DNA of 64,000 bases from an uncultured Pelagibacteraceae bacterium (GTDB taxonomy: Bacteria; Pseudomonadota; Alphaproteobacteria; Pelagibacterales; Pelagibacteraceae). The position numbers were made by a program, and so were the translations under genes. The notes beneath the pieces are model-generated. The model saw nothing but the letters and a program-made list of their open reading frames with translations, was not told the origin of the DNA and ran no database searches. Below, one piece after another: positions 8,340 through 13,209 of the stretch. Position 1 is the first letter of the stretch, and the number at the start of each line of letters is the position of its first letter. The stretch is taken from contig CACLAY010000002.1 of assembly GCA_902604975.1 (NCBI GenBank), positions 124,001-188,000 on the forward strand, written 5' to 3'.

Positions 8340-9404
8340 TCAAATTTTTGGCTCTTGTTGCGTCATGCAATGAATAGCCCCAAAACCCCAAATCAAATCA
8401 CTACAATCAATACCAATAACTTTTCTATTTGTAAAAAATTTTCTAAAAATTTTTAAAACCTTTTTGTCTTCTTTCACATTAAATACTGGAACCAAGACTG
8501 TTTTATTACTTATGAAAAAATTTAAATAACTTGCTGGGACACGAGTTTTGTCTATGACAACTGGGCTTGGCATAGGAATTTTTATAATTTTTAATTTTTT
8601 TCCATTTTCATCGTGACTTTTACCCAATATTTTTAAATTTTCTTTAAGAGCTTTATAATTTTTATCTAATCTATTATTTTCTACAGCTATCATAATTGTA
8701 CTTTTAGAAACAAATCTTGCGATATCATCGACGTGCCCGTGTGTGTCATCTCCAATAATTCCTTTATTAAGCCAAATAAAATTTTTTGCATTTAAATATT
8801 TTGAAAATAGATTTTCGTAATCAATTTTTTTGAATCCTTTATTTCTCACTTGTTTACTACTTAATAAGCACTCCTTTGTCAGCAATATAGAGCCTGATCC
8901 ATTGTTATCAAATGCACCCCCTTCCATTACGACTCTTACAAATTTTTTTGAATTTACTTTTTTAGGTAAAATACTTTTAATATTCAAATATTTACTAATA
9001 AGGCTATTGATTTTGTTATCATTTTTGAAATTTTTATATTTTGACCAGGCATTGAATTTAAAATCGAGCATGGTCTTTTTTCTTTTTTTTTTGTTGACTA
9101 AAAATATTGGCCCAGAATCTCTTAACCAAAGTCTGTCTGTTTTAAGTTTATGAAATTTAATGTTGGATATATTGCAACCTATTTTTTTTAAATATATTCT
9201 TGTGGTACCAATACTTTTGGTATTATTGACTAATAAATGTACTTTTTGATGTTTTGTTAAATATTTTATTATTTTTCCAACTACATTTGGAATTTTTTCA
9301 AATAATCCAGGCCAATCATTTTTATTATGAGGCCACGACATCCAAACTGATTTTTGAGGCTCCCATTCTGCTGGCATTCTAAATTCATCTATTTTTTTAC
9401 TCAT
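8340..9404 (-). CDS. aguA: Agmatine deiminase
   Basis: RMPAEWEPQKSVWMSWPHNKNDWPG; VMEGGAFDNNGSGSILLTKECLL; DDTHGHVDDIARF; GAIHCMTQQEP. Confidence 0.9.
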   Translation of the reverse strand: MSKKIDEFRMPAEWEPQKSVWMSWPHNKNDWPGLFEKIPNVVGKIIKYLTKHQKVHLLVNNTKSIGTTRIYLKKIGCNISNIKFHKLKTDRLWLRDSGPIFLVNKKKRKKTMLDFKFNAWSKYKNFKNDNKINSLISKYLNIKSILPKKVNSKKFVRVVMEGGAFDNNGSGSILLTKECLLSSKQVRNKGFKKIDYENLFSKYLNAKNFIWLNKGIIGDDTHGHVDDIARFVSKSTIMIAVENNRLDKNYKALKENLKILGKSHDENGKKLKIIKIPMPSPVVIDKTRVPASYLNFFISNKTVLVPVFNVKEDKKVLKIFRKFFTNRKVIGIDCSDLIWGFGAIHCMTQQEPKI

Positions 9405-10278
9405 CTTTAGGATTTTTGAGAATATCTCTATAAAATTCAGTTCTTCTATCTCTTAAAAAAGGCCAGTGCTGTCTAGCAGTATCTATTTTTTTATAATCTA
9501 CTTCACAAACTAAAATATCTTCTTTTTTATTTCCTGCTTTTGCAATTATTTTACCACTAGGATCTATCATCATTGAATTACCCCAAAATTCAATTTTTTT
9601 TTTTCCTTTTTTTTCAACACCAACTCTATTTATAGCAGCCACATAAGTTCCATTAGCAATAGCATGAGATTTTTGCATTGTGATCCAAGATTCTAATTGA
9701 GATTTTCCAAATTTCTTTTTTTCCTTTGGGTGCCATCCAATAGCAGTAGGATAAAAAATAATTTGAGCCCCTTTTAAAGCTGTTAATCTTGCTGCTTCGG
9801 GGAACCATTGATCCCAACATATAAGAGGACCTATCTTGCCAAATTTAGTTTTCACACTTTTGAAACCTAGGTCTCCAGGACTGAAATAAAATTTTTCATA
9901 ATACCCGGGGTCATCAGGTATGTGCATCTTACGATATTTAGATAGAATATTACCATTTTCATTAATAATGATACTAGTGTTATGATAAAACCCAGATGTT
10001 TTTTTTTCGAACATAGTAATATTCAATACAACACCAAGCTCCTTTGCTAAATCGCAAAATATTCCAGAGATTTTTCCTGGAATTTTTTCTGCTAATCTAA
10101 AATTTGAATGACTTTCTGTTTGGCAAAAGTAATTAGTCAAAAATAGTTCTGGTAGACATATTATCTTTGCCTTTTTCCTTGCAGCTTTTTTAATATTTTT
10201 TATAGCTAAATCAATATTAGATTGAATTGTCCCTAAAGATTTACTTTGTATTAAACCAATTTTGATTTTTTTGATCAT
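9397..10278 (-). CDS. aguB: N-carbamoylputrescine amidase (nitrilase superfamily)
   Basis: ICLPELFLTNYFCQTE, YRKMHIPDDPGYYEKFYFSPGD, GPLICWDQWFPEAARL; next to aguA. Confidence 0.9.
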   Translation of the reverse strand: MIKKIKIGLIQSKSLGTIQSNIDLAIKNIKKAARKKAKIICLPELFLTNYFCQTESHSNFRLAEKIPGKISGIFCDLAKELGVVLNITMFEKKTSGFYHNTSIIINENGNILSKYRKMHIPDDPGYYEKFYFSPGDLGFKSVKTKFGKIGPLICWDQWFPEAARLTALKGAQIIFYPTAIGWHPKEKKKFGKSQLESWITMQKSHAIANGTYVAAINRVGVEKKGKKKIEFWGNSMMIDPSGKIIAKAGNKKEDILVCEVDYKKIDTARQHWPFLRDRRTEFYRDILKNPKDE

Positions 10279-10281
10279 TAA

Positions 10282-11322
10282 TCAAAATATCTTGGAAAAA
10301 TTTTTTCTTTCTCTATTTTTCCATTCACCTTTATGATAGGCATCACTTGCTATTAAGGGTAGCACACTTGTTGCTTCTGCAAAAACCATTTGCTCCTTTG
10401 TAATATCTACTTTGCCCCATGAGCTTGCCTCTTTTAATGTTGAGCTACTGCAGGCTCCATCTCTGGAATCAGCGACTGTTATTTGAATAGCATATTTGTG
10501 CATATCTACATCTTTACCTAAAAGTTCAGCACATATAACAGTATCTTGAATAAAATTTTTTGGTACACCTCCTCCAATCATAAAAAGACCTGACCCTTTA
10601 GATTTGATTTTAATTTCAGTTAATTCTCTAAATTCTCGGATTGAGTCGATTGTGATGTGATTTTTTGGATTTCTTTCTTGATGCATTACAAGCCCAAATC
10701 CTGCGCTTGAATCAGTAAACGCTGGACAGAAAATTGGAACTTCGTTGTCATAGGCAACCTCTATCAATGAATCTTTCTTCTTTGCGTTTGTTTTAAGATA
10801 TTTACCAATCTCTTTTATAAATTCTCTTGATGTATAACTTTTAGGCTCTAATTGATCTGCAATTTCTCCAATAGTTTTATCGCACATTTGAAGCTCTTCT
10901 TCATCAATGTATGTATCATATATTCTATCAACGTAGTTATTTCTTAACTCTGTATCATCTTGATATTGGGATCCCTGATAATGTCTGAAACCAAGTGCTT
11001 CAAAGAAATCCATATCAATAATTGAAGCCCCAGTTGCTACTATTGCATCTACCATATTATATTTAACTAAATCTCTATAAATATGCATACATCCTGCAGC
11101 AGATGTTGATCCAGCGAGTGTTAAAAATATAGTACAATCTTTATCTTTTATCATCTCATTATAAATATTTGCAGCATTTGCAGTCTCTCTTGAGACGAAA
11201 GACATTTTTTCCATTGAAGAAACTATTTTTCTAGCATCGAAAGAAGTTATATCAATATGCTCTACTTCTTTACTAAGTAAATCACTTTTTCTATTATTTG
11301 ATTGGTTTTTATTATCTGACAT
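10282..11322 (-). CDS. Deoxyhypusine synthase-family protein (probable bacterial polyamine enzyme, e.g. homospermidine synthase)
   Basis: LTLAGSTSAAGCMHIYRDLV, DAIVATGASIIDMDFFEALG, GACSSSTLKEASSWGKVDI (DHS catalytic Lys region). Confidence 0.85.
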   Translation of the reverse strand: MSDNKNQSNNRKSDLLSKEVEHIDITSFDARKIVSSMEKMSFVSRETANAANIYNEMIKDKDCTIFLTLAGSTSAAGCMHIYRDLVKYNMVDAIVATGASIIDMDFFEALGFRHYQGSQYQDDTELRNNYVDRIYDTYIDEEELQMCDKTIGEIADQLEPKSYTSREFIKEIGKYLKTNAKKKDSLIEVAYDNEVPIFCPAFTDSSAGFGLVMHQERNPKNHITIDSIREFRELTEIKIKSKGSGLFMIGGGVPKNFIQDTVICAELLGKDVDMHKYAIQITVADSRDGACSSSTLKEASSWGKVDITKEQMVFAEATSVLPLIASDAYHKGEWKNRERKNFSKIF

Positions 11323-12500
11323 TAAGCAACAAGAAACTCTTTATTTGCTTCTTTGTCATACATCGTCATGATTGGATTATCTTCAACTTCGTAAATATCA
11401 TCTGAGTAAAATCCATTAAAATTAGTTCTAAAAGTTAATCCATACGCTCCAAGCTGTCCTAATTCTATATAGTCGTTTTCTTTGATGTTATTAGGTAAAA
11501 TAAAAGGACCTTTCATATAATCCATACTATCACAAGTTGGACCATAGAAATCAAATGATGTTAATTTCTTTGAGATTACTCTTCCATCTGTTATCATTTT
11601 TGATGGGTAAACTATGTTGGGAACACCTGCATCAAACAAAGTTCCATATGTCCCATCATTTATATAAAGCTTTTGTTTTTTTCTTAAATCAACTCTTACA
11701 ATTGTTGAGCCACTTTCAGCAACAATTGCTCTTCCAGGTTCACAAATAATTTCTGGAAGCTTATCTAATTTTAAATTATTTAAAGCTTTTTTAATTTCAT
11801 CAAAATAACTTTTTAAAGATTGAGGAATAAGATCAGGGTAAATAGTAGGAAAGCCACCACCAACATTTATTACATCGGGTATAATTTTAGTTTTTTTAAT
11901 TATATTATTGATTTCAAATATTCCTTTTGAATAAGATATTGGGTGCATACATTGTGAACCAACATGAAAACTAAGTCCAATTTTTTTAGAATATTGTTTT
12001 GTTAATCTAAGTAATCCAGCTGCTTCAGTATTAATGGCTCCAAATTTTTTTGATAAATCAATTTCCGCATGTTCATTAGATACAGAAACTCTAATAAATA
12101 ATTCTAAGTCTTTAGCGTAATTTGTATTTTCTAAAATTTTTATTAATTCATCTTTAGTATCTAAAGAAAAGGTCTTAACATTATATTTAAAATATGCCTC
12201 TTGAATGCTTTCTCTACTTTTGACTGTATGCATATAAGAACAATTCGCATCTGGACTTATTTTTCTTATAGCCTCTATTTCTCTGATAGATGCTACGTCA
12301 AAATGGTTAATGCCACTCTCAACAATAGTTTTAAGAACTAATGGATGTGGGTTGGTTTTTAAAGCATAAAGTATTTTTCCAGGGAAATTTTTTTGGAAGT
12401 ATTTAGAAGCCAATTTGATTGACTCTTTTCTAATACAATAAACAGGTCCTGTCGGTCTCAGTTGATTAACTAATTCCTCAACTGACTTAAATTTTTGCAT
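11322..12500 (-). CDS. Ornithine decarboxylase (fold-III PLP decarboxylase)
   Basis: ILYALKTNPHPLVLK PLP-lysine motif, GGGFPTIYP, CEPGRAIVAESG, YGPTCDSMDYM. Confidence 0.88.
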   Translation of the reverse strand: MQKFKSVEELVNQLRPTGPVYCIRKESIKLASKYFQKNFPGKILYALKTNPHPLVLKTIVESGINHFDVASIREIEAIRKISPDANCSYMHTVKSRESIQEAYFKYNVKTFSLDTKDELIKILENTNYAKDLELFIRVSVSNEHAEIDLSKKFGAINTEAAGLLRLTKQYSKKIGLSFHVGSQCMHPISYSKGIFEINNIIKKTKIIPDVINVGGGFPTIYPDLIPQSLKSYFDEIKKALNNLKLDKLPEIICEPGRAIVAESGSTIVRVDLRKKQKLYINDGTYGTLFDAGVPNIVYPSKMITDGRVISKKLTSFDFYGPTCDSMDYMKGPFILPNNIKENDYIELGQLGAYGLTFRTNFNGFYSDDIYEVEDNPIMTMYDKEANKEFLVA

Positions 12501-12501
12501 A

Positions 12502-12577
12502 TCTGCACCTCTAAAAAAAAATTTACAAAAAAAACCTGCATATCAAGTATGCAAATTTCATAAATGCAGCATTTATG
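12502..12577 (-). promoter_or_regulatory. Candidate structured leader/attenuator of the polyamine operon
   Basis: On - strand: CATAAATGC-T-GCATTTATG, then TGCATA-CTTGA-TATGCA followed by GG and eight T; CTGCAT in the first element can alternatively pair with ATGCAG of the second. Confidence 0.4.
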
Positions 12578-12645
12578 GGAAATAATTAATAATGTAAAGT
12601 AAATAATGCTATTGAAATATTAAAATTTACTTCCATATAAGGGCT

Positions 12646-13209
12646 ATGATTAACCAACCAATACTTCAGAAATTAAGTGATTTTGAGGATAAATCGCTTT
12701 TGATCGTAGACGATGACAATCCATTTAGACAAAGATTGGCTAGAGCTATGGAAAAAAAAGGTTTTACAGTTACACAAGCTGAGAGTGTAAAAATTGGTAT
12801 TGAGACCGTAAAATCACAAAGTCCAGCATTTGCTGTTGTTGATCTAAGGTTAAATGATGGAAATGGATTAGAGGTAGTAAAAGAAATTCAAAAGGGAAAT
12901 CTTAAAAGCAGAATCATAATGTTAACTGGGTATGGTAATATTCCAACAGCAGTTGCTGCAATTAAAGAGGGAGCAATTGATTATATTGCTAAACCAGCAG
13001 ATGCAGATGATGTCGAAAAAGCTCTTTTAGCTGATCCAAATCAAAAACCTGCTCCTCCTGAAAACCCAATGTCTGCAGATAGAGTAAAATGGGAGCACAT
13101 ACATAGAGTTTTTGAATTATGTAACAGAAATGTCTCTGAGACTGCAAGAAGACTAAAAATGCATAGAAGAACTCTTCAGAGGATATTATCTAAAAGGTCT
13201 CCTAGATAA
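12646..13209 (+). CDS. regA: Response regulator of the RegA/PrrA/ActR family
   Basis: LLIVDDDNPFRQRLARAMEKKGF receiver; AVVDLRLNDGNGLEV; C-terminal Fis-type HTH NVSETARRLKMHRRTLQRILSKRSPR. Confidence 0.92.
   Translation: MINQPILQKLSDFEDKSLLIVDDDNPFRQRLARAMEKKGFTVTQAESVKIGIETVKSQSPAFAVVDLRLNDGNGLEVVKEIQKGNLKSRIIMLTGYGNIPTAVAAIKEGAIDYIAKPADADDVEKALLADPNQKPAPPENPMSADRVKWEHIHRVFELCNRNVSETARRLKMHRRTLQRILSKRSPR

Follow-up and report, generated by a model that had tools for sequence, protein, structure and literature searches.

In Alphaproteobacteria, ornithine decarboxylase (ODC) genes can be preceded by the speF leader RNA, which is ~400 nt long (PMC1273637). According to its text description, another leader of such genes, the odc1 motif (uORF-25-1), combines an overlapping upstream open reading frame (uORF) of 11 amino acids with a Shine-Dalgarno (SD) sequence at the shoulder of a hairpin (PMC8632094). 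For Pelagibacter, the main text of an RNA survey makes no mention of ornithine, polyamine or decarboxylase (PMC2704228). SAR11 dominates ocean surface waters and is thought to regulate little; PotD, its protein for polyamine uptake, frequently ranks with the most abundant proteins detected (PMC8437039). The leader described here precedes a polyamine operon of this group. A permissive Rfam scan returned chance matches only, both in the window (the whole stretch of 64,000 nt that was analysed; E up to 10) and at 12 related loci (E up to 5). Neither the covariance model of the speF leader (RF00518) nor a SAM-I-type aptamer found a match in the window or at those loci, and the leader is thus neither speF nor the SAM-I-variant spermidine riboswitch. 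That it differs from speF had already been proposed by an earlier sequence-only reading of this DNA.

The first gene of the operon (window 11322-12500, on the minus strand like all leader features below) encodes an ODC-like PLP decarboxylase that scores over the cut-offs of PF02784 and PF00278. The operon (window 8340-12500) continues with DHS-like, AguB-like and AguA-like genes, in this order. The DHS-like product resembles deoxyhypusine synthase and is over the cut-off of NF002699, a 1,9-bis(guanidino)-5-aza-nonane synthase model, and the AguB-like amidase and AguA-like deiminase both score below their cut-offs; the substrates of these last two enzymes are uncertain. A 145-nt intergenic region is common to the ODC gene and its divergent neighbour (window 12646-13209), which encodes an ActR/PrrA/RegA-type redox response regulator that exceeds its NCBIfam cut-off. 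The window comes from a 77%-complete assembly, and the closest named relatives of its ODC, in Pelagibacteraceae genomes, are 91-96% identical. Viral contigs contained one partial ODC relative, and one form of the leader pattern had no exact copy there.

ODC orthologues were gathered from the genus of the window (g1), from other genera of the family and from the rest of the class, and their leaders were compared. The core set, 134 distinct leaders from g1 and two close genera (g14 and g17), showed a single architecture: CTTTACAT, ~17 nt, TAAAT or TTAAT followed by GC, a short gap, a hairpin, T7-10, R-T(1-3)-AAA, T7-9, a purine-rich SD and ATG-nAA-AAA-TTT-AA. In the window the SD-like sequence is AGAGG (12508-12512), and orthologues are purine-rich at the equivalent place. 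When compared with shuffled sequences, the leader folded moderately better than chance, with z = -2.08 for 12498-12600 (7 of 200 shuffles were equally good) and z = -2.35 for 12498-12581.

The upstream part of this architecture resembles a promoter. A -35-like TTTACA within CTTTACAT (12593-12598) is conserved family-wide, and in 150 distinct promoters its spacing to the -10 element is near-constant. The -10-like ATAAAT (12571-12576), which is followed by a GC discriminator, is conserved as well (T89% A89% A97% among 89 distinct genus sequences; among 61 from other genera, the first position is T in 97%). Across the family, ODC promoters preserve TTTACA together with a TA-rich -10 box and a discriminator that contains GC (window 12566-12577); promoters under stringent control typically have GC-rich discriminators. 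In the window, ATAAAT is also the left arm of a first inverted repeat, CATAAATGC-T-GCATTTATG (12577-12559). With the TAAAT element as the probable -10 box inside this repeat, transcription would start near 12565 and the 5' arm of the repeat would lie outside the message; since the repeat overlaps both the conserved -10 box and the discriminator, most of it should not be transcribed. A start just past the -10 box would make the repeat part of a promoter and not of a riboswitch, and promoter DNA is indeed the likelier identity. The sequence-only reading had placed the repeat in the mRNA, and the promoter geometry shared by the orthologues points instead to a start that would leave its first element out, an outcome which that reading had itself named as counting against it. 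A role of the repeat as a DNA operator was rejected, as the dyad excess was modest in the genus and absent in other genera, in a comparison from which relatedness was not removed.

Beyond the putative start, the leaders of the genus carry a hairpin, P1, which in the window is GAAATTTGCATA-CTTGA-TATGCAGGTTTT (12531-12559) and adjoins the first U tract. The sequence-only reading, whose letters and coordinates all check on the minus strand, had recognized it as TGCATA-CTTGA-TATGCA (12553-12537) followed by GG (12536-12535) and T8 (12534-12527). The hairpin is there, but the stem is longer than this description allowed, as GAAATTTGCATA and TATGCAGGTTTT form 12 pairs when G-U pairs and the A-tract paired to the T-tract are counted; it includes 2 G-C pairs and has a predicted stability of -9.5 kcal/mol. 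The stem measures ~8-13 bp and runs directly up to a T7-10 tract in nearly all of the 134 leaders; in a few it is shorter or mismatched. Between clades the stem sequences are swapped for others, such as AAATTTGCATA/TATGCAAATTT and AAAGGTGCATA/TATGCACTTTT, with the hairpin and its contact to the T tract kept, and AAACTTGCATAG/TTATGCGAGTTT, AAAGTTTTTTA/TAAAAAGCTTT and GAAGTTTGTATG/TATACAAATTTT are further interchangeable stems. For 30 diverse representatives, in which 91.5% of cells were paired, the covariation score was 0.466, compared with 0.205 ± 0.021 after shuffling (0/500) and at most 0.20 in slid controls; these controls do not fully remove relatedness, and the replacement of stems between clades is independent of them. 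RNAalifold independently recovered the P1 helix, with double changes in 5 of 6 pairs, and exchanging 3' arms between leaders lowered the mean pairing from 9.95 to 8.43 of 11. P1 is a structured cis-acting leader RNA helix that has been kept before the same gene by compensatory changes. This bears out two earlier proposals: the SAR11 ODC gene does have a compact, conserved RNA element in front of it, and selection acts at the RNA level on the second hairpin and its T tract. Because both stem and loop sequences are freely replaced, P1 appears to have no aptamer-like core.

Downstream of P1 the leaders share an almost invariant U8-RU(U)AAA-U8. In the window this double U tract reads U8-GUAAA-U9 (12513-12534), and the form of the genus is U7-10, R-U1-3-AAA, U7-9. 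It is specific to ODC: in two genomes (190 and 411 genes), ODC alone had two T7+ tracts within 50 nt of the start. Across 61 genomes of the genus, T7-RTTAAA-T7 occurred about once per genome, mostly at known ODC coordinates; of 16 sites elsewhere, 14 were not gene leaders and the other 2 were further ODC leaders. A looser form was found in 44 of 63 leaders of other genera. Two explanations of the double U tract were discarded. One was a general enhancer, since only ODC carries such a tract among ~600 genes, and the other, on reasoning only, was a U-A-U triple helix, since the A tract is placed differently between genera and the strand topology would be awkward. A leader peptide, ATGAAATTTGCATACTTGATATGCAGGTTTTTTTTGTAA (MKFAYLICRFFL), was likewise rejected: its frame is interrupted by TAG in L004 and lost in L005, and L006 has no ATG.

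The linker and second U tract, UAAAUUUUU (12525-12517), are exactly complementary to AAAAAUUUA (12496-12488) in ODC codons 2-5. The helix that they could form, P2 (12488-12525), was found by RNAalifold and would enclose the SD and AUG. The complementarity is present in essentially all of 31 representatives; covariation is impossible here, and the pairing is partly fixed by the protein sequence and by A+T bias. Codons 2-4 show no third-position variation across 115 of 115 genes, and codon 5, whose third position lies just outside P2, is AAG or AAA at a ratio of 61:52; a few of the other Lys and Phe sites of ODC are equally invariant. Codon 3 is AAA in 168/168 motif-bearing leaders, compared with 20 AAA and 6 AAG in the others, counts that are not corrected for relatedness. 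Furthermore, shuffling the leader part lowered the expected number of P2 pairs from 6.0 to 2.6. Single-sequence folding backed P2 in ~58% of leaders, and weakly in the window itself. The predicted pairing was nearly unchanged from 10 to 37 °C, which speaks against a thermosensor. A further candidate hairpin, P3 (12459-12484), lies in ODC codons 6-14 and would pair CAGUUGA (12484-12478) with UCAACUG (12465-12459). It was proposed by RNAalifold and is suggested by codon 14 (12459-12461), which is CTG in 56 of 84 distinct genes of the genus; in the remainder of the gene, CTG accounts for 1% of Leu codons. One P3 pair has changes on both sides; taken together, P2 and P3 show weak formal covariation.

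Taken together, these observations lead us to propose, with a probability of about 40%, that this is an undescribed cis-acting leader RNA of Pelagibacter, the likeliest role of which is to tune the start of ODC translation through an A-U helix. The short folded leader has been kept by evolution across the genus and probably sets the amount of ODC, by means other than a two-hairpin switch. Transcription would begin just past the -10 box inside the first repeat, giving an mRNA with P1 of variable sequence, U8-RU(U)AAA-U8, the SD and the start codon in this order. The linker and second U tract would then zip onto the first ODC codons through A-U pairs only, closing the SD and AUG into a loop of ~20 nt, with P3 just within the gene at the downstream edge of the initiation site and P1 acting as a 5' cap or a weak terminator. 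Such a marginally stable helix could compete with ribosome binding and thereby tune ODC translation, and it might respond to polyamines or to cold-shock RNA-binding proteins.

Cold-shock proteins are an attractive candidate for the signal, because E. coli CspB and CspE favour UUUUU and AAAUUU and Csps function as antiterminators (PMC9947658), because CspE/CspL have been proposed as post-transcriptional regulators in Pelagibacter (PMC2864753), and because a CSD protein is encoded in the genome of the window itself. No Hfq was found in this 77%-complete genome. A more specific version of the proposal, which we consider unlikely, makes the leader a feedback sensor that works without an aptamer. 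Intracellular polyamines, or cold-shock proteins with UUUUU/AAAUUU as their binding sites, would set the stability of the all A-U zipper (U8-RUUAAA-U8 on codons 2-5) between the two hairpins, and the product of the pathway would lower ODC translation. If so, one of the ocean's most abundant bacteria would limit its own ODC through the product of the pathway. More generally, a selected leader RNA that sits on a polyamine operon and has no Rfam entry would give SAR11 a rare point of post-transcriptional control, and U tracts that serve as cold-shock-protein sites would be a concrete candidate target for the regulation proposed for CspE/CspL.

Other explanations differ in how much of the leader they account for. 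The sequence-only reading had taken the two repeats as mutually exclusive hairpins, with CTGCAT (12569-12564) in the first complementary to ATGCAG (12541-12536) in the second, and had suggested that CUGCA could cover the ribosome site as well, through a third TGCAG (12507-12503) before the start codon. These complementarities are real in the window and its closest relatives, but a perfect first repeat is present in only 26 of 134 leaders, the CTGCAT...ATGCAG pairing in 31 and TGCAG before the ATG in 37, in each case exclusively in orthologues of at least 90% protein identity. Confined to this clade, the switch is not conserved, and its first arm coincides with the conserved -10 box; neither the switch nor the mask is supported, and we regard this reading as very improbable. 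Transcription attenuation is possible but doubtful. P1 and U8 would here be an intrinsic terminator that is weak by design, and the choice between termination and read-through would fall to a factor, for example a cold-shock protein. The window leader shares with intrinsic terminators and attenuators the A-tract, stem and U8 geometry, its U tract following the hairpin directly with the A-tract opposite; the stem abuts the T tract, with A-tract and T-tract paired, in nearly all leaders, the clear terminators of the genus likewise end in T8, and the Csp preferences, Csp antitermination and CSD protein mentioned above fit equally well. However, the stem is not the stable, G+C-rich one of an intrinsic terminator. 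In the clear terminators of the genus (588 kb, two genomes), which sit ~40-80 nt past a stop codon, there are 5-6 G-C pairs with T8 or T9, at -15.6 to -25.2 kcal/mol, whereas the median for the ODC hairpins is -6.7 kcal/mol, with 0-3 G-C pairs, the A+T stem of the window being far weaker than theirs. A simple terminator scan called none at the window leader, most leaders of other genera have their hairpin without a U tract after it, no conserved antiterminator was found, and the second U tract, linker, P2 and P3 would be left unexplained. The earlier description of the hairpin as terminator-like is weakened by the poor stem: P1 with U8 is possibly a weak conditional terminator and unlikely to be an ordinary one.

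A constitutive element is rather doubtful. P1 would guard the 5' end of the mRNA and the U-rich stretch would be a strong standby or S1 site, with no regulation involved. U-rich stretches upstream of the SD are known enhancers, and the hairpin lies near the putative 5' end. Carbon oxidation functions of SAR11 are also reported to be often without transcriptional regulation (PMC8437039). Against this, the linker is conserved exactly and used at ODC only, and a plain enhancer would not predict the invariant codons or the CTG codon. Descent from odc1, with most of the element lost in the genus of the window, is quite unlikely. Its appeal comes from outside the genus: in other Pelagibacteraceae genera, 49 of 63 leaders have ATG-NN-ATG, 36 an 11-codon uORF and 37 UGUGU-SD-ACACA, and other Alphaproteobacteria have TTG-NN-TTG or ATG-NN-GTG with 11-aa uORFs (L299, L307 and L300) like those in the text description of odc1 (PMC8632094). 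In the window, however, CAG stands at -5, where ATG is found in 14 of 121 leaders of the genus compared with the 49 of 63 in other genera; the frame ends after 11 codons and lacks a start codon; and the SD lies 3' of the U tracts and thus outside the right shoulder of P1, which together with the U tracts has no counterpart in the odc1 description.

Outside the genus of the window, the ATG-NN-ATG loci (L154, L173, L266-L285 and others) have their upstream start 5 nt off, in the published odc1 layout. In genera g5 and g7 the SD sits in the loop of a UGUGU/ACACA hairpin right before the double start (L154, L157, L248, L255 and L266-L285), and a UGUUU/AAACA variant (L248) suggests a compensatory change in this hairpin. 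As a general element the SD hairpin was rejected, since counts of the 46/63 type were modestly above swapped controls in one mixed set and it is not the rule in the genus of the window.

The proposed tuned-helix leader can finally be placed among known systems. Like speF (RF00518; PMC1273637), it precedes an alphaproteobacterial ornithine decarboxylase gene of the COG0019 kind, but speF extends over hundreds of nt with a long bulged stem, and the whole intergenic region here has 145 nt. With the SAM-I-variant spermidine riboswitch (PMC10853860) it shares downstream polyamine biosynthesis genes and a hairpin with a U tract; that riboswitch requires the SAM-I-type aptamer, which the window does not have. 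As in RNA thermometers of the fourU/ROSE kind, a weak helix would limit access to the SD and AUG; unlike in those, P2 would pair codons 2-5, with the SD looped rather than paired, and in the model a change of temperature within 10-37 °C has almost no effect. From odc1, as known from its text description, the window leader differs in having no upstream start codon, in an SD placed outside the hairpin arm, and in its double U tract and candidate coding-region hairpin, which that description does not contain. As the upstream start is mostly lost in the genus and replaced by CAG in the window, the leader is not filed as odc1. Nevertheless, odc1 is its nearest relative in spirit: both precede the same gene family as compact leaders with a hairpin and with the initiation region built into the element, and other genera of the family also have the double start 2 nt apart and the 11-codon uORF.
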